A stretch of 10,575 bases of DNA from contig PEUR01000141.1 in the NCBI GenBank assembly GCA_002780675.1, positions 1-10,575 of the forward strand, read 5' to 3'. Source of the DNA: Gallionellales bacterium CG03_land_8_20_14_0_80_55_15 (lineage in GTDB: Bacteria > Pseudomonadota > Gammaproteobacteria > Burkholderiales > Gallionellaceae). The notes beneath the pieces were generated by a model. That model did not search any database. It was not told the DNA's origin and saw only the letters and a list, made by a program, of their open reading frames with translations. Of the stretch, positions 1 to 8,347 are shown in pieces. Each line of letters opens with the position of its first letter. Within the stretch, counting starts at the first letter, position 1. A program made the position numbers and the translations under genes.

Positions 1-408
1 ACCGCCGAAGGGCAAATTCGTGATGATGTGACGTATGCGCAACTGGCGGAATTTGTCTGGTTTGTGGAGACAGGAACGGGGCTTAAATCCCCCCTAACCC
101 CCCTTTTGCAAAGGGGGGAGAAGATGAATGTGGTGCGAGAATTCCCCACTTTGAAAAAGGGGGGGGAGGGGGGGATTTCTCCTTTGTTGGGCATCCACCA
201 AGGCCGCGCGATTTACCTGCTGTACAACGGCATTCTCAAGGATAAGTCAGTGGCGGGCGGCAATGTGCTTACATCGCAAGTATTTGATTTACTTGAAATT
301 TTTGACGGATCAAAAGTGATCTATGCCGCCGCTTGCCGTTTGGGCGCGGCACGTTTGCAGCGGGAAAATATCGTCTTCAAGCAAACCCCTTACGCGTTGG
401 CGGTATAA
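1..408 (+). CDS. Site-specific DNA methyltransferase, probably type III Mod subunit (3' end only)
   Basis: The frame is open from the first base to a TAA at 406-408, giving the last 135 residues of a gene whose start lies outside the window. After the repeat-derived block the protein reads SPLLGIHQGRAIYLLYNGIL, then GGNVLTSQVFDLL. From memory this resembles the C-terminal part of type III adenine-specific Mod proteins, where a VWFTETG-like segment precedes PLLG and GRAIYLLYNG. The catalytic motifs (DPPY and the AdoMet FxGxG) are not in the window, so methylation is inferred from this C-terminal match and from the res gene downstream. Residues encoded by about 85-178 come from a pair of palindromic repeats inserted between ETGTG and SPLLG, adding roughly 30 residues without breaking the frame. 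The gene could instead be another beta-class methyltransferase subtype. The target sequence cannot be read from this fragment. Confidence 0.62.
   Translation, partial: TAEGQIRDDVTYAQLAEFVWFVETGTGLKSPLTPLLQRGEKMNVVREFPTLKKGGEGGISPLLGIHQGRAIYLLYNGILKDKSVAGGNVLTSQVFDLLEIFDGSKVIYAAACRLGAARLQRENIVFKQTPYALAV
85..119 (+). repeat. Palindromic C/G-rich repeat, left unit in mod
   Basis: The unit is AAAT, C6, TAA, C6, TTTTGCAAA, G6, A. Bases 98-118 form a near-perfect palindrome: C6, a TTTTGCAAA centre, G6. It lies inside the methyltransferase reading frame and is translated as KSPLTPLLQRGE. It matches, with small differences, the unit at 7296-7330 in aceF. The reverse complement of 143-178 is a diverged copy, so this is the left member of an inverted pair. 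Confidence 0.9.
143..178 (-). repeat. Palindromic C/G-rich repeat, right (inverted) unit in mod
   Basis: On the + strand it reads TCCCCACTTTG, A5, G8, A, G7, ATTT. Its reverse complement starts AAAT, C7, T, C8, and aligns along its length with the unit at 85-119. The spacer between the two is about 23 bases. It is translated as LKKGGEGGI. The KGGxGG peptide recurs as AKGGLGG in the aceF right unit. The G8 and G7 runs, separated by a single A, are the longest G-rich stretch in the left part of the window. Confidence 0.85.
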
Positions 409-648: not shown

Positions 649-947
649 TGAAGCTGATTTTTTTACGCATTGCGCGCAATGAAATGGCGGAAATAAAACG
701 CTATTACAATTTTCAGCAAAAAGGATTGGGGGATGCCTTTCAGCGTGAGGCACAGACCGCTGCCCAGCTGATACTGGCACGTCCACTTTCCTGGCAAATT
801 GAAATTGAACCAACCCGGCGGTTCATCTTGAATCGTTTTCCCTACAAGATGGTATATCTGGTGCAGGCCGAGCAAGTCGTTATCGTTGCTGTCATGCATC
901 AACATCGTCGCCCGGATTACTGGGTAGATCACCTTCCAAACCCATGA
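648..947 (+). CDS. RelE/ParE family toxin
   Basis: A 99-residue basic protein starting at GTG 648, one base inside the antitoxin stop. It has the usual ParE/RelE layout: an N-terminal strand and helix with ARNEMAEIKRYY (residues 9-20), a GLGDAFQREA helix (26-35), then RFILNRFPYKMVYLV (58-72) and AVMHQHRRPDYW (81-92). The FPY and H-x-x-R-x-P-x-YW ends are characteristic of the superfamily. Members either cleave mRNA at the ribosome (RelE) or poison gyrase (ParE), and the sequence does not decide which. The length is normal and all conserved segments are present, so it looks intact. Its TGA overlaps the ATG of res in an ATGA (944-947), placing toxin and restriction subunit in one coupled mRNA. 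Confidence 0.85.
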   Translation: MKLIFLRIARNEMAEIKRYYNFQQKGLGDAFQREAQTAAQLILARPLSWQIEIEPTRRFILNRFPYKMVYLVQAEQVVIVAVMHQHRRPDYWVDHLPNP

Positions 948-3616
948 CCACTTTCCTTCCCAAGCTATACCAGCAAGCGGTACTCGATAGCGTCGAGACT
1001 TATTTCCGCGCCTGTTTGCAATTAGGCGATGCCGACACCGCGTTTTACCAAACCACCCGCGAGTTGTGGGGCGAGGGCAGCAAGTATCAAGCCATCGCGG
1101 GGTTTTCATCGGACATGCCGTATTTCTGTCTGCGCGTTCCGACCGGCGGCGGTAAGACCTGGCTGGCGGCGAAGAGTGTGGCGCTGATCAACACACATTT
1201 ATTGCGCTGCGAACACAGTGTCATTTTGTGGCTGGTGCCAAGCAAGGCGATACGCGAGCAGACCCTGAAAGCCTTGCGCAACCCGCAACATCCCTATCAC
1301 GCCGCCTTGAAGGAAGCCGGGCCGCTGACGGTGCTGGCGCTGGAGGAGGCGAAAAATGTGACACGCGCCACGCTGGAGACCTCCACCACGGTGATCGTGG
1401 CGACGGTGCAGGCGTTCCGCCGCGAGGATACCGAGTGGTTAAAAGTCTATCAATCGAGCGGTGCGCTGATGCATCACTTCGAGCATTTGACCTCGGAACA
1501 AGGTGCGGAACTATTACGCGACGGCGAGACTACGCCCTATTCGCTGGCGAATGTGCTGCGCCTGCGCCGCCCGTTTGTGATTGTAGATGAGGCGCACAAC
1601 AACCGCACGCCGCTGTCATTCAAGACTTTTGCCGATTTTCGTCCGAGCGGCATTCTGGAACTGACCGCCACGCCGGATACCGAGCAAACGCCGAGCAATG
1701 TGCTACACAGTGTTTCCGCCGCCGAGTTGAAAGCGGAGCAGATGATTAAGCTACCAATCATGCTGGAGTCCGAACCGAACTGGCAGCAATGCCTAGCCGA
1801 TGCGCTGGCACGGCGTAGCGAGTTACAAACACTGGCCGAGCAGGAAGCACGCTGCGGCGCACCTTATCTGCGTCCGCTGGTGTTGATACAGGCAGAAAAG
1901 CGCCGACAAGGAGTCGAGACGCTGGATGTGGAACGGGTTAAACGTGAACTCGTCGAGAACCATCGCGTCCCCCCCGCAGAAATCATCATCGCCACTGGCG
2001 ACGAAAGAGGACTGGAAAAAGTGGATGCAGACTATCTGCACGGCATTGCTGATGCGGCGTGTCCGGTCAAGTTTGTTATCACCCAACAAGCCTTGGCGGA
2101 AGGCTGGGATTGCCCGTCTGCCTATATTTTGGTGAGTATGGCCGAGCTGCATTCGGCCACTTCGGTGGAACAATTGTTGGGGCGCGTATTGCGCCAACCG
2201 GATGCACAGCGGCGTACCAGTCAGGCGCTGAACCAGTCTTATGCGTTTGTGGTATCGCGCAATTTTGCCGAGACCGCATCCGCCTTGCGTGACCGGCTGG
2301 TACAGGGCGCGGGCTTTGATCGCCACGCGGCAGCGGAATTCGTGCAGGCGGTGAAACAACAGCAAAGACCGCTCGATCTTGAAGGCAACGCGGGAAGTAT
2401 CGTGATGCATCCGGTGGTGATTTCGTTAACGGAAAAGCCGGATGTAAAAAGCCTCCCCAAAGCACTGCGCAGCAAAATTAGCTGGGATGACAAGGCGCAA
2501 GCACTGACCATTTCACAGCCGTTGAGCGAGGCCGAACAGCTAAGCGTCGAGCAATCGGTGCAAAGCGAACCCGCCAGGGTTGCCATCGGGCAGGCAGCCG
2601 TGACCAGTCGCACCACGGCGGTGGAATTTTTCTATACACCCGCCGAGTTGGGTACACGCTTTGCCGTGCCGCAAATGGCGCTGTTCATGCAGGGCGAACT
2701 GACGCTGTTCGATGATGCGGAAGTGCTTGATTATCCTTGGGATTTATCCTGTTATGACGCAGCGCCGACGTTGCCGGATCTGTCTGAACTGAATGCCGCC
2801 CTCAAGGTATCCGAAGGCGGCGAGATAGATGTGGATGAGGCGGGCAGGATGACCGCGCGCTTTATCGCCGATATGCAGCGGGATTTGGGACTGGCGTATC
2901 GCCCGGACAATTGGGATGCAGTGAAATTGGCGGCGTGGCTGTGCCGCAATCTGCCTGAGCCCTCCATCACGCACGCCAGCAAACAAGCGTTCGTCGCGCA
3001 CTGGATCAGCGCACTCTTCGCCCGTCCCGGCTACGATCTGGGGCGCGCCAACCGGCAAAAATTCCTGATCCGCAACCTGCTGGAACGCCGCATAAAAGAC
3101 CTGCGCAGCGCAGCTGTCAAACAGGCTTATCAGCAAACCTTGTTTGGCGCAGACAATGCAAACCGCGTGGTGGTAGATGAACGCCATTGCTTCGAATATC
3201 ACCCGCAAGGCTATGCGCCCAGCCGCGACTACGATGGTCGCTTCGGCCAATTTACTTTCCAGAAACACTATTACGGGCGCATCGGCGATTTCGATAGCGG
3301 CGAGGAATTCGCCTGCGCGTGCTGGCTGGACACCCAGGCACAAAAAGGACGCATCAGTTTCTGGGTGCGCAATCTGGTGCGCAAGGAAGGCTGCGCGTTC
3401 TTTTTGCAAAAGGCCGATGGGCGCTTCTACCCCGATTTTTTATGCCAGCTACCGGATGGCACGGTACTCGTCGTCGAATATAAAGGCGCGGATCGCTGGA
3501 AAGAAGCCGAGGATGACCGCCTGATCGGTGGCTTATGGGCTGAATTGTCCGGCGGGCGCTGCCGGTTTGTGATGATAAAAGACAAGCAGTGGCAAGGAAT
3601 TGAGGCCATGCTATGA
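944..3616 (+). CDS. Type III-like restriction enzyme Res subunit (DEAH helicase plus PD-(D/E)xK nuclease)
   Basis: An 890-residue superfamily 2 helicase with a C-terminal nuclease. Walker A is PTGGGKT (66-72), motif Ia is near LVPSKAIREQT (98-107), motif II is DEAH (215-218) and motif III is TATP (241-244). Motif V is ALAEGWDCP (383-391) and motif VI is QLLGRVLRQP (410-419). These span two RecA folds, about residues 30-460. The C-terminus has FYPDF with D831 and VVEYKG with E845 and K847, the PD-x(n)-ExK catalytic pattern of type III Res proteins. In that family ATP hydrolysis drives communication along DNA and cleavage needs the Mod partner, whose gene end lies upstream. No frameshift or missing key residue is visible, so the subunit looks functional. 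The start overlaps the toxin stop (ATGA). Some relatives are annotated only as DEAD/DEAH helicases, so restriction activity is a family-based inference. Confidence 0.85.
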   Translation: MTTFLPKLYQQAVLDSVETYFRACLQLGDADTAFYQTTRELWGEGSKYQAIAGFSSDMPYFCLRVPTGGGKTWLAAKSVALINTHLLRCEHSVILWLVPSKAIREQTLKALRNPQHPYHAALKEAGPLTVLALEEAKNVTRATLETSTTVIVATVQAFRREDTEWLKVYQSSGALMHHFEHLTSEQGAELLRDGETTPYSLANVLRLRRPFVIVDEAHNNRTPLSFKTFADFRPSGILELTATPDTEQTPSNVLHSVSAAELKAEQMIKLPIMLESEPNWQQCLADALARRSELQTLAEQEARCGAPYLRPLVLIQAEKRRQGVETLDVERVKRELVENHRVPPAEIIIATGDERGLEKVDADYLHGIADAACPVKFVITQQALAEGWDCPSAYILVSMAELHSATSVEQLLGRVLRQPDAQRRTSQALNQSYAFVVSRNFAETASALRDRLVQGAGFDRHAAAEFVQAVKQQQRPLDLEGNAGSIVMHPVVISLTEKPDVKSLPKALRSKISWDDKAQALTISQPLSEAEQLSVEQSVQSEPARVAIGQAAVTSRTTAVEFFYTPAELGTRFAVPQMALFMQGELTLFDDAEVLDYPWDLSCYDAAPTLPDLSELNAALKVSEGGEIDVDEAGRMTARFIADMQRDLGLAYRPDNWDAVKLAAWLCRNLPEPSITHASKQAFVAHWISALFARPGYDLGRANRQKFLIRNLLERRIKDLRSAAVKQAYQQTLFGADNANRVVVDERHCFEYHPQGYAPSRDYDGRFGQFTFQKHYYGRIGDFDSGEEFACACWLDTQAQKGRISFWVRNLVRKEGCAFFLQKADGRFYPDFLCQLPDGTVLVVEYKGADRWKEAEDDRLIGGLWAELSGGRCRFVMIKDKQWQGIEAML

Positions 3617-4341: not shown

Positions 4342-6999
4342 ATGGCAAATTTACCTGATAACGACCCGCAGGAAACGCAAGAGTGGCTGGATGCGCTCGA
4401 GTCTGTTCTTAAAAATGAAGGCGCGGAACGCGCCCATTTTCTGCTGGGACAACTGATAGATAAAGCCCGCAATTCGGGCGCGGGCGTACCGTTCAGCGCG
4501 ACCACACCGTATTGCAACACCATCGCCGTGGCGGACGAGGAACGTTCCAGCGGCAACCACGAAATCGAGCACCGCATCCGCGCCATGACCCGTTGGAACG
4601 CGATGGCGCTGATTTTGAATGCCAATCATGACTCTTCCGAACTAGGCGGACATATCGCCAGTTTTGCTTCGGCGGCGACTTTGTACGACGTGGCTTTCAA
4701 CCATTTCTTCCACGGCAAGACCGACACGCACGGCGGCGATCTGGTGTATTTTCAGGGTCACTCGTCCCCCGGCGTTTACGCGCGCGCCTTCCTCGAAGGC
4801 CGCATCAGCGAAGCAACTATGTACAAATTCCGTCAGGAAACGGCGGGCGGCGGTTTATCCTCCTACCCGCACCCCTGGCTGATGCCGGATTTCTGGCAGT
4901 TCCCCACCGTTTCGATGGGACTGGGTCCGTTGATGGCGATTTATCAGGCGCGCTTCCTGCGCTATATGGAACATCGCGGCATGGTCAAGACCGAAGGCCG
5001 CAAGGTCTGGGCTTATCTGGGTGACGGTGAAACGGATGAGCCGGAATCACTGGGCGCGGTTTCGATGGCCGGACGCGAAAAACTGGACAACTTAATTTTT
5101 GTGGTGAACTGCAATCTGCAACGTCTGGACGGCCCGGTGCGCGGCAACGGCAAAATTATCCAGGAACTGGAAGGCGTGTTCCGTGGCGCGGGCTGGAATG
5201 TCATCAAGGTGGTGTGGGGCGGCCAGTGGGATCGTCTGCTCGCCAAAGACAAGAACGGCTTGCTGCAACAACGTATGCAGGAAGTGGTGGACGGCGAATA
5301 TCAGACCTATAAATCCCGTGATGGCGCCTATGTGCGCGAACACTTCTTCGGCAAATATCCCGAGTTGCTGGAAATGGTAGCCGATATGTCCGACCACGAA
5401 ATCTGGCGCCTCAATCGCGGCGGACATGATCCGCACAAGGTTTATGCGGCCTACGCGGCGGCCACCAAACACACCGGCCAGCCTACCGTCATTCTGGCAA
5501 AAACGGTCAAAGGCTACGGCATGGGCGAAGCGGGCGAAGCACAGAACATCACCCACCAGCAAAAGAAAATGGCCGGTCAAGTGTTGCTCCAGTTCAGAGA
5601 CCGTTTCAACCTGCCGCTGAGCGATGAAGAAGTCGCCAGCCTGAAGTTCTACCGTCCTGCCGAAGGCAGTCAGGAAATGAAATATTTACAGGAACGAACC
5701 GCAGCGATGGGTTCGGTACCCGCGCGCAATCCGGCCAGCGAACCGCTGCAAATCCCGGAACTTGAAGCCTTCACCGCCTTGCTGAAAAGCACCGAAGGCC
5801 GCGAAATCTCCACCACCATGGCGTTCGTGCGAATGCTGGGCATTCTGGTCAAGGACAAGAATATCGGCAAACAAGTCGTGCCTATCGTGCCGGACGAATC
5901 GCGTACCTTCGGCATGGAAGGCATGTTCCGCCAACTGGGTATTTTCTCGCAGGTGGGCCAGCTCTACACCCCGCAGGATGCCGACCAGTTGATGTTCTAC
6001 AAGGAAGACAAGACCGGCCAGATTTTGCAGGAAGGCATCAACGAGGCGGGCGCGATGTCCTCCTGGATCGCCGCCGCCACGGCCTACGCCAACCACGGCC
6101 GTGCCATGCTGCCGTTCTACATTTACTACTCGATGTTCGGCTTCCAGCGCATCGGCGACCTGGCCTGGGCGGCGGGCGATATGCGCGCGCGCGGCTTTAT
6201 GATCGGCGGGACGGCAGGACGCACCACGCTGAACGGTGAAGGCTTGCAGCACGAAGACGGCCACAGCCATCTGATGTCGGCGACGATACCGAATTGCGTC
6301 TCTTACGATCCGACCTTCGCCTACGAGCTGGCGGTCATCATCCATGACGGGATGCGCCGCATGTATGTGAACCAGGAAGACGTGTTCTATTACCTCACCG
6401 TGATGAACGAAAACTATGCCCATCCTGCCATGCCAGAAGGCGCAGAAGCCAATATAATCAAGGGGATGTATTTGTTCAGCGAAGCCGCAGGGGACGACAG
6501 CAAGCCTCGGGTTCAGTTGATGGGCAGCGGCACGATATTGCGCGAAGCGATTGCCGCTGGCGGCTTGCTGGCCAACGATTTCGGCGTGGCAGCGGACATA
6601 TGGAGCGTGACCAGCTTTACCGAATTGCGCCGCGACGGCATTGATTGCGAACGCTGGAACACGCTGCATCCCGAAGATCAACCCCGCTTCAGCCATGTCG
6701 AGCAATGCATGGCCGACCGCGATGGTCCGGTGATCGCCGCAACCGATTACATGCGTTCCTTCGCCGACCAGATTCGCGGCTTTTTGCCCAAGAATTTCAA
6801 GGTGCTGGGCACGGATGGCTTCGGTCGTTCGGATACCCGCAAAAATTTGCGCCAGTTCTTTGAAGTGGATCGTTATTACATCGCCGTGACCGCGCTGAAA
6901 GCCCTGGCGGATGAAGGCACCCTGGATGCTTCCGAAGTCAGCCGTGCGATCAAGCTGTACAACATCAATCCAGAAAAAGCGAATCCGGTATCGGTTTAA
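4342..6999 (+). CDS. aceE: Pyruvate dehydrogenase E1 component, homodimeric type
   Basis: An 885-residue thiamine-diphosphate enzyme that decarboxylates pyruvate and reductively acetylates the lipoyl groups of E2. The ThDP/Mg motif is GDGETDEPES starting at G227 (D228) with N258 in VVNCNLQ, matching E. coli D230 and N260 with an offset of two. H405 in NITHQQKK corresponds to the active-site-loop His407. Other near-identical blocks include YFQGHSSPGVYARAFLEG and SSYPHPWLMPDFWQFPTVSM. The C-terminal domain ends with KVLGTDGFGRSDTR and FFEVDRYYI. The length agrees with E. coli AceE (887). I chose the ATG at 4342, giving MANLPDNDP; an in-frame GTG at 4327 would add five residues but has poorer support. 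Purine-rich GAGAG at 4330-4334 lies ahead of the ATG. The gap to aceF is 37 bases, so the two genes form one operon. Confidence 0.97.
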   Translation: MANLPDNDPQETQEWLDALESVLKNEGAERAHFLLGQLIDKARNSGAGVPFSATTPYCNTIAVADEERSSGNHEIEHRIRAMTRWNAMALILNANHDSSELGGHIASFASAATLYDVAFNHFFHGKTDTHGGDLVYFQGHSSPGVYARAFLEGRISEATMYKFRQETAGGGLSSYPHPWLMPDFWQFPTVSMGLGPLMAIYQARFLRYMEHRGMVKTEGRKVWAYLGDGETDEPESLGAVSMAGREKLDNLIFVVNCNLQRLDGPVRGNGKIIQELEGVFRGAGWNVIKVVWGGQWDRLLAKDKNGLLQQRMQEVVDGEYQTYKSRDGAYVREHFFGKYPELLEMVADMSDHEIWRLNRGGHDPHKVYAAYAAATKHTGQPTVILAKTVKGYGMGEAGEAQNITHQQKKMAGQVLLQFRDRFNLPLSDEEVASLKFYRPAEGSQEMKYLQERTAAMGSVPARNPASEPLQIPELEAFTALLKSTEGREISTTMAFVRMLGILVKDKNIGKQVVPIVPDESRTFGMEGMFRQLGIFSQVGQLYTPQDADQLMFYKEDKTGQILQEGINEAGAMSSWIAAATAYANHGRAMLPFYIYYSMFGFQRIGDLAWAAGDMRARGFMIGGTAGRTTLNGEGLQHEDGHSHLMSATIPNCVSYDPTFAYELAVIIHDGMRRMYVNQEDVFYYLTVMNENYAHPAMPEGAEANIIKGMYLFSEAAGDDSKPRVQLMGSGTILREAIAAGGLLANDFGVAADIWSVTSFTELRRDGIDCERWNTLHPEDQPRFSHVEQCMADRDGPVIAATDYMRSFADQIRGFLPKNFKVLGTDGFGRSDTRKNLRQFFEVDRYYIAVTALKALADEGTLDASEVSRAIKLYNINPEKANPVSV

Positions 7000-7036: not shown

Positions 7037-8347
7037 GTGGCAGAAATCAAGCAGGTATTAGTGCCGGACATCGGCGATTACAAGGATGTCAGCGTCATCG
7101 AAGTGATGGTCAAAGTCGGCGACACCCTCAACGCGGAAGACACGCTGTTGACGCTGGAAACGGACAAGGCGGCGATGGATGTGCCCTCGCCCTACGCCGG
7201 GGTGGTTAAGGAATTGCACGTCGAAATCGGTGACAAAGTGTCGCAAGGTTCGCTGATTCTGGTCTTGGAGTGCGCAGAACAAATCCCCCCCAGCGAAATC
7301 CCCCCCGCCCCCCCTTTTGCAAAGGGGGGAGTAGAAGCGGCAGCAGCATCAGCCTCGCCTGCCACTGCCGTAACCCAAGTCGCTACTGCGCAACCACCCG
7401 TTGTCACCCCCCCCCTTGCAAAAGGGGGGCTGGGGGGGGATTTGGCACATGCCAGCCCGGCGATCCGCCGCTTTGCGCGCGAATTGGGCGTGGACATTGC
7501 GCAGGTCAAGGGCAGCGGCGAAAAAGGCCGTGCAACCAAAGACGATGTGCAGAACTTCGTCAAGGCGGCGCTGGCACAGCCCCGCACAGCGGACAAACCA
7601 ACTGGCGGTAACGGTTTGCAAGTGCTCGATATGCCGGTATTCGATTTCGCCAAGTTCGGTGCCATTGAAATCCAGCCGCTATCGCGCATCCAGAAGATTT
7701 CCGGCGCAAACCTGCACCGCAACTGGGTGACGATTCCGCATGTCACGCAATTCGATGAGGCCGACATCACTGACATGGAAGCCTTCCGCAAACAACTGGG
7801 CGCGGAATACGCCAAACAGAACATCAAGATTACCCCGCTGGCTTTCATGCTCAAGGCCGCCGCCGCCGCCTTGCAAGCCTTCCCGAAATTCAACGCTTCG
7901 CTGGATGGCGAAAATCTGATCCTCAAGCAATACATCAACATCGGCGTGGCGGTAGATACGCCGGATGGCCTGGTCGTGCCGGTACTGCGCGATGTGGACA
8001 AGAAGGGCATCGTGCAACTGGCCAAAGAACTAGGCGAAATCAGTGCAAAAGCCCGCGACAAGAAAATCACTGCCGCCGATATGCAGGGCGGCTGCTTCAC
8101 CATTTCCAGCCTGGGCGGCATTGGTGGCACGGCGTTTACCCCCATCATCAACGCGCCTGAAGTGGCGATTCTGGGCGTGTCGCGTTCTTCCATGAAGCCG
8201 GTGTATCAGGACGGCCAGTTCGTGCCGCGCCTGATGCTGCCGCTGTCCGTTTCCTACGACCACCGCGTGATAGACGGTGCGGCGGCAGCGCGCTTCACCG
8301 CTTATCTGGCGAAAGTGCTGGCCGACTTGCGCCGTCTGGCCTTGTAG
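7037..8347 (+). CDS. aceF: Dihydrolipoamide acetyltransferase, E2 of pyruvate dehydrogenase
   Basis: A 436-residue E2 core protein that passes acetyl groups from E1 through lipoyl-lysine to CoA. There is one lipoyl domain (about 1-78) with the modified lysine K44 in [12 protein letters not shown] linker (about 79-138) and a peripheral subunit-binding domain follow, the latter about 139-175 ([14 protein letters not shown] then [13 protein letters not shown]). The catalytic domain runs from about 205 to the end, with H409 and D413 in HRVIDG. E. coli AceF has three lipoyl domains; this one has a single copy. Much of the linker is encoded by two inverted palindromic repeats (7281-7443), giving [16 protein letters not shown] and [13 protein letters not shown] around an Ala-rich stretch. 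All catalytic residues remain, so the insertion seems tolerated in the flexible swinging arm. The lpd gene for E3 is not next to it. Other 2-oxoacid dehydrogenase E2s are excluded by the adjacent homodimeric aceE. Confidence 0.95.
7281..7330 (+). repeat. Palindromic C/G-rich repeat, left unit in aceF, with duplicated end
   Basis: The full unit is 7296-7330: AAAT, C7, G, C7, TTTTGCAAA, G6, A. It differs from the mod unit at 85-119 mainly in C-run lengths and in G versus TAA between the runs. An exact 11-base copy of its first bases (AAAT plus C7) precedes it at 7281-7291, offset by 15 bases, so five codons are kept in frame. It encodes [16 protein letters not shown] in the E2 linker. The frame used for the unit is shifted by one base relative to the mod left copy. 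Confidence 0.9.
7407..7443 (-). repeat. Palindromic C/G-rich repeat, right (inverted) unit in aceF
   Basis: On the + strand: C9, TTGCAAAA, G6, CT, G8, ATTT. The reverse complement starts AAAT, C8, AG, C6, and aligns with the left unit, so the pair is inverted around a 76-base Ala/Pro-coding spacer. It is translated as [12 protein letters not shown]. The C9 and G8 runs are the longest homopolymers in the window. Confidence 0.9.

Follow-up and report, generated by a model that had tools for sequence, protein, structure and literature searches.

Palindromic repeats inside bacterial genes

Elements of the REPIN/RAYT system are dispersed doublets of inverted palindromes with a spacer between them, and they carry a GTAG tag. 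Short palindromic elements have also been described within coding sequences. In Rickettsia, RPEs are short palindromic elements that lie in frame in many unrelated genes and can add peptide to the gene product, as described in the relevant passages of two accounts (PMC10969869, PMC3733652); the families that include RPE-4 and RPE-6 bear a CGTC tag (PMC3733652). The passages of the latter account that deal with intragenic REPs of the GTAG and CGTC types report singles and dimers in uvrA, recB, a tRNA synthetase gene and other genes, and note that two Xanthomonas species have a REP at nearly the same position in recB (PMC3733652). PATEs of Haloquadratum are short elements whose near-terminal palindromes resemble IS605-type ends and which, in the passages that describe them, have no terminal inverted repeats (PMC3119063). 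In-frame palindromic insertion, as exemplified by RPEs and intragenic REPs, is already known.

The repeat described here, called class A, was analysed in the gene for the E2 subunit of pyruvate dehydrogenase (PDH). It resembles REPINs in forming inverted doublets with a spacer, but it is not GTAG-tagged. Like RPEs, class A is short, palindromic and found in frame in unrelated genes; unlike RPEs, which the cited passages describe in Rickettsia, it lacks the CGTC tag of RPE-4 and RPE-6, occurs in many phyla and is associated with a host protein whose length varies by modules (PMC10969869, PMC3733652). It also differs from the GTAG/CGTC REPs as described, in that neither tag tetranucleotide is constant in class A, and section 15 of that account, on intragenic REPs, neither names PDH E2/E3 nor describes length alleles (PMC3733652). 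Class A and PATEs are both short and palindromic, but class A pairs have inverted ends, whereas PATEs are described as having none (PMC3119063). Among the titles and abstract openings listed from the open-licence literature, none dealt with the class A unit, a repeat-built E2 linker or arm-length alleles; exact peptides matched no paper, and the 30 papers listed of 46 matched by DNA strings did not concern this repeat. The class A family, its site in the E2/E3 arm and the modular length variation are apparently new within that literature.

The aceF locus and its repeat pair

The window, i.e., the whole stretch of 10,575 nucleotides that was analysed, is contig C134 of the source genome (G000), whose assembly comprises 1.61 Mb in 222 contigs and is 81% complete. 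On its forward strand, aceF (7037..8347; ORF list and Pfam) encodes dihydrolipoyllysine-residue acetyltransferase, the PDH E2, a protein of 436 amino acids that starts at a GTG codon. AceF contains, in the order expected of a PDH E2, a lipoyl domain (residues 5-77, 7049..7267, forward strand; Pfam Biotin_lipoyl), an E3-binding domain (residues 138-172, 7448..7552, forward strand; Pfam E3_binding) and an acyltransferase domain (residues 211-435; Pfam 2-oxoacid_dh). The adjoining upstream gene, aceE (PDH E1; 4342..6999, forward strand), has no class A core.

Between the lipoyl and E3-binding domains, positions 7281-7443 hold two units of approx. 34 bp in inverted orientation. The first (7281..7330, forward strand) comprises two heads (7281-7291 and 7296-7306) and a palindromic core (7308-7329); the second (7407..7443, reverse strand) comprises a core (7407-7429) and the complement of a head (7433-7443). 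They flank a 76-nt spacer ('cassette a'; 7331..7406, forward strand) rich in Ala, Pro and Val, and the whole is translated in frame as AceF residues 82-136; given the Pfam limits of the two neighbouring domains, the repeat thus takes up most of the AceF linker. Complementarity between the two arms amounts to 88% across 33 nt. In the left unit, doubling of the AAATCCCCCCC head (at 7281 and 7296) accounts for an extra in-frame 15 nt that is missing in a relative (G011). The distance between the two cores is 99 nt (33 codons), which places them in one reading frame, with the peptides PPFAKGG and PPLAKGG as products. The preliminary description had reported two inverted units between the lipoyl and subunit-binding domains, a 76-base spacer and, as their joint product, most of residues 82-136, and the coordinates and Pfam assignments agree with it on each of these points.

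The pair in aceF is not due to chance: with up to three mismatches, the core pattern gave seven overlapping matches at four sites in the window, and 0.00 were expected from 200 dinucleotide shuffles. A second class A pair (85..178, no strand assigned) lies in frame in the open reading frame at 1-408, which has no Pfam match; the 5' part of this frame is cut by the contig end, and a type III restriction Res-like gene (944-3616) lies nearby. A known RNA family was considered as the identity of the repeat and rejected, as the window gave no Rfam match above the gathering score. The spacer was likewise rejected as a mobile repeat in its own right, since a 73-nt spacer query of 61 genomes matched aceF of G000 and G011 and otherwise gave one weak 34-nt match in G024. 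The predicted structure of AceF was poor (mean pLDDT 53, and below 50 for residues 1-136, lipoyl domain included); hence, no conclusion was taken from it.

Class A as a dispersed repeat family

The class A unit consists of a AAATCCCCCC head, usually one to three variable bases, and the palindrome CCCCCCTTTTGCAAAGGGGGG or a near variant. Its overall layout, AAATCCCCCC-nnn-CCCCCCTTTTGCAAAGGGGGG, spans approx. 34 bp, and the palindrome, whose core is also written CCCCCTTTTGCAAAGGGGG, is of the C6-T3..A3-G6 type. When the source genome was searched with the core pattern, allowing at most one mismatch, 11 units were found at seven sites on six contigs, and the reversed control gave none. Pairs are present at four of these sites, i.e., in the frame at 1-408, in aceF, in the lipoyl linker of lpd (C27) and in ileS (C160); a Nudix/ThiE fusion gene (C140) carries one unit and, as judged by eye, a decayed second one, and two contigs (C110, C143) hold single units. 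The exact core occurs in 24 of the 61 genomes of the genus (reversed control, 0 in each), with up to 96 matches on one strand per genome when overlapping matches of one unit are counted separately; G019, G064 and G074 are the genomes richest in class A. Outside the genus, the core pattern was found in at least 118 stretches of named species genomes from many phyla; the record titles of 80 of them name Beta-, Gamma- and Deltaproteobacteria, Nitrospirae, Methylomirabilota, Acidobacteriota, Chloroflexi, Poribacteria and others. Viral contigs contributed 86 stretches. One 6.2-kb viral stretch (L431) carries the unit eight times.

In class A pairs, the AAATCCCCCC heads face outward and form terminal inverted repeats, as in MITEs, and the pairs are dispersed inverted doublets, as in REPINs, although single units occur too. 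Neither REP tag is a regular part of the unit: GTAG was found anywhere in the unit and its 20-nt flanks in 17 of 196 distinct contexts, and CGTC anywhere in the unit and flanks also in 17 of 196. A RAYT was considered as the driver of class A but gained no support: the presence of the Pfam family Y1_Tnp (51 of 61 genomes) is not tied to class A abundance (12/12 class-A-rich genomes vs. 39/49 others, p 0.19). Mobility of class A is suggested by its copy number and sites. The preliminary description had spoken of a mobile or amplifying repeat that became part of an essential enzyme; a genome-wide repeat does now encode the PDH E2 linker, but the mobility it assumed is a deduction, and no mobilising enzyme is tied to the family.

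As in RPEs, the insertions are palindromic and keep the frame of conserved genes; insert-free relatives for comparison come from aceF, lpd and ileS only. Class A units are open in 4.76 of six frames, compared with 4.34 for letter shuffles, and this slight excess of stop-free frames indicates that the coding compatibility of the unit derives mostly from its composition.

Other host genes

The preliminary description had called the site in E2 the one place where composition is loosely constrained. This wording is not supported: class A also resides in Lpd, IleS and the Nudix/ThiE fusion of the source genome and, in relatives, in Mpl, LeuS, RecJ, an MmeI-like methylase and an AddA-like protein. 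The lpd and ileS pairs of the source genome keep the reading frame open and are flanked on either side by Pfam domains. Among the 40 of 42 Lpd loci that could be parsed (four of these without a lipoyl motif in frame), the linker contains class A in three (G000, G003, G074). The loop that follows QWFIGM in IleS carries class A, called by eye, in four of the 55 loci parsed out of 56 (G000, G019, G064 and, in part, G003); the remaining loops are shorter or different, and three (G010, G029, G080) hold what by eye are other palindromic inserts. This loop of an essential synthetase is a second recurrent landing place (L205, L206, L207, L208, L313, L220, L227).

Two relatives, G019 and G082, were surveyed in 20 regions taken among the core matches listed. 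These regions contain 24 class A elements, 14 with an open frame that reaches 35 residues on both sides and 10 without one. The Pfam scan covered seven of the 14 open-frame candidates, picked by eye (the other seven seemed to run antisense to a gene or to lie ahead of one), and all seven scanned elements, i.e., 7 of the 24 and thus a minority, lie in frame inside known genes with Pfam domains: Mpl, the MetH activation region, an AddA-like gene in both G019 and G082, the MmeI-like methylase, LeuS and RecJ. In the Mur ligase, here called Mpl, the insert lies within the middle domain; in the MetH host, Pfam matches just one of the two sequences that flank the insert. The AddA-like gene (UvrD-type helicase and PD-(D/E)XK domains; L334, L343) carries a class A pair at what by eye is the same site in G019 and G082, which resembles the recB case described for Xanthomonas REPs (PMC3733652).

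Repeats of other kinds were also seen in this set of genes. The aceE gene of G019 (L077) contains a palindromic insert (HPHPNLPPEGEG ... GSAGVGMG) that keeps the frame and belongs to a different family. A segment of the form ~SHSTxL..D..QVAGY recurs in aceF of G074, G076 and G019, in ileS of G029 and in the AddA-like gene of G019, sometimes beside class A units and sometimes alone; it may represent a third family of repeats. The Lpd linkers of G027, G028, P0124 and P0126 contain short repeated peptides (SRIQDAGVRMQD, RSEERGA), another repeat kind.

AceF linkers across the genus

The AceF linker was assessed in 54 of the 61 genomes; in six no full AceF was found (G003, G015, G023, G031, G034, G084), one has a run of N (G066), and a second aceF copy in G013, with another palindromic insert, was kept out of the count. 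The preliminary description had proposed comparing linkers of relatives with and without the repeat, and both kinds were found. Class A is present in seven of the 54 (G000, G005, G008, G011, G019 and G083, with a remnant in G002), six by pattern and G002 by eye; pattern matches in G020 and G021 were judged not to be class A. An unrelated palindromic family, class B (CTCCCCTTGTCAGGGGAG), occupies the linker in seven genomes (G016, G019, G020, G021, G064, G067, G081), and G019 has both. Class B is a genomic repeat too (25 of 61 genomes, control 0). Most other linkers are rich in Ala, Pro and Val, and those of G026, G074 and G076 have other inserts. In the protein database, the class A peptide signature was matched by pattern in 17 of the 120 best AceF matches.

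Genomes rich in class A have it in aceF more often than the others do (5/9 vs. 2/45, Fisher p 0.0007), in a comparison whose cut-off of 8 was chosen after the counts were known, includes the matches of aceF itself and ignores kinship.

Length variants of the AceF linker

Variation in linker length among near-identical proteins goes beyond the preliminary description. In a protein database search, P0001-P0006 were closest to AceF of the window; P0002-P0006 are independent entries, whereas P0001 has no source given, which is how the window's own protein would be listed. The window protein and P0001-P0005 differ from each other at 0-2 positions per pair over 370 residues (70 before and 300 after the linker), and their linkers measure 57 (window), 57 (P0001), 89 (P0002), 56 (P0003), 106 (P0004) and 73 residues (P0005). 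As assigned by reading, the linkers consist of PPFAKGG-type units (u) alternating with three cassettes (a, b and c), copies of one cassette being similar but not always identical. The layout is u-a-u in the window, u-b-u in P0003, u-a-u-b-u in P0002, u-c-u-b-u in P0005 and u-c-u-b-u-a-u in P0004. P0002 exceeds P0003, and P0004 exceeds P0005, by exactly 33 residues, i.e., one core plus one spacer; other differences include 32 residues (window and P0002), 1 (window and P0003) and 17 (P0003 and P0005). A search with the linker only returned eight proteins, all with AceF domains. The alleles are known solely as proteins from sequence collections, and at this protein level some may reflect assembly error at repeats. 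Clustering of the protein collection at 90% identity may also conceal additional alleles.

Tandem repeats are found in two host genes of relatives. The lpd linker of G003 is a tandem array with a period of 105 nt (2.1 copies, 94% matches), in which identity drops within the cores. That in mpl of G019 has a period of 48 nt (2.5 copies, 81% matches, 1% indels), and each period is divisible by three. No comparable tandem array was found in the window. The 120 best database matches of Lpd included no allele that was nearly identical and from the species of the window; the top matches were 85-86% identical over the full length.

Origin and evolution of the repeat-built arm

These findings are probably best explained by an AceF arm linker built from a dispersed palindromic repeat, with its length changing in modules by recombination between in-frame cores. 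Class A pairs would have spread genome-wide, probably by a REP/MITE-like route, and would survive inside genes at points that can accept additional peptide that is unstructured and free of stops, such as linkers and loops. The copies, their sites and their reading frame can be read directly from the genomes. The reverse complement of the core is almost identical to the core, so the inverted pair doubles as a direct repeat of approx. 20 bp. Unequal recombination or slippage between the aceF cores could then add, remove or swap core-plus-spacer modules, and the distance of 99 nt, or 33 codons, means that such exchange should keep the frame and might yield near-identical AceF proteins with linkers of 56 to 106 residues. 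Module recombination agrees with the tandem repeats that relatives carry in Lpd and Mpl. The change in linker length is most likely near-neutral because the arm need only be long and flexible; E2 linkers are not known to require more than length and disorder. The most economical view is thus one of tolerated selfish DNA and repeat recombination at a permissive linker site. A bolder version of this reading, put forward tentatively, is that the population holds a pool of E2 arms, of at least 56 to 106 residues, made by in-frame core recombination; the selfish repeat would then act as an arm-length generator, and the same device might operate in Lpd and Mpl of relatives.

It might be proposed instead that selection maintains core recombination as a contingency-like tuning of lipoyl-arm reach in E2 (and E3). 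Five linker lengths among proteins with 0-2 differences elsewhere would be in keeping with such switching, as would the presence of class A in both E2 and the lipoyl-bearing E3 of the source genome; the proposal is nevertheless unlikely, given a similar tandem expansion in Mpl, which has no swinging arm, the unrelated enzymes among the remaining hosts and the lack of class A in aceF of 47 of the 54 readable genomes. Slightly less credit is given to a role at the RNA level, in which a hairpin in aceF mRNA slows ribosomes or stabilises the message in the stretch that joins two folding domains, the peptide being a by-product. Positions 7281-7450 do fold at -92.1 kcal/mol, compared with -64.0 for shuffles (sd 4.5, z -6.3), but such an energy is expected of any inverted pair, and protein alleles with three or four units as well as a decayed remnant (G002) exist. 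It is very improbable that the linker is an artefact of misassembly, a frameshifted pseudogene or chance low-complexity Pro/Gly coding: the source assembly is indeed fragmented (222 contigs, 81% complete), yet the AceF frame is full-length with all three domains, a similar layout recurs in G005, G008, G011, G019 and database proteins, and the chance expectation of the core pattern is 0.

A further alternative concerns history and is compatible with an arm built from class A and altered by module recombination. It posits a single old insertion in aceF that persisted in a few lineages and disappeared from others, linker segments passing now and then between species, in place of repeated insertion, and it has almost an even chance of being correct. 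The left junction is common to G000, G011 and G002, element ends lie at similar positions in distant lineages, and the spacer of G000 shares 93% identity with that of G011 across 56 nt; repeated independent insertion in aceF is thus not established. G011 moreover shows a mosaic pattern. Its identity to G014 is 92% in the 3' part of aceE, 96% in the lipoyl segment, 91% in the rest of aceF and 94% in nadD, and that to G000 is 84, 87, 85 and 78% in the same segments. Although the flanking segments of G011 that were measured are 91-96% identical to those of G014/G075, its linker matches that of G000 and is unlike theirs: a 200-nt block with most of the linker of G000 is 84% identical to G011, 70% to G014 and 72% to G075. 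In a concatenated tree, class A carriers fall in several separate lineages, and single-gene trees, read with branch support left unweighed, conflict on the placement of G011 and G000. Against a single event stands lpd of G074, where class A has its own junctions and is not found in the relatives read (G073, G071, G035, G006), so insertion seems to recur in that gene; a second family, class B, also sits in other aceF linkers. For G000 and G011, the choice lies between exchange of the linker segment across species and an old insertion that G000, G011 and G002 retained while other lineages lost it; the high identity of their spacer sequences leans towards linker exchange.

Biological meaning

The host of the repeat-built arm is an iron-oxidising bacterium of the Gallionellaceae, and E2 is a central metabolic enzyme. 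The geometry is simple and general, in that a palindromic core lets an inverted pair act as a direct repeat. The AceF proteins form a natural series of E2 arm lengths on an otherwise near-identical enzyme, which could be used to test the length that a swinging arm needs. The locus offers a concrete route by which selfish palindromic DNA may turn into protein in essential enzymes and then evolve in whole-module steps.
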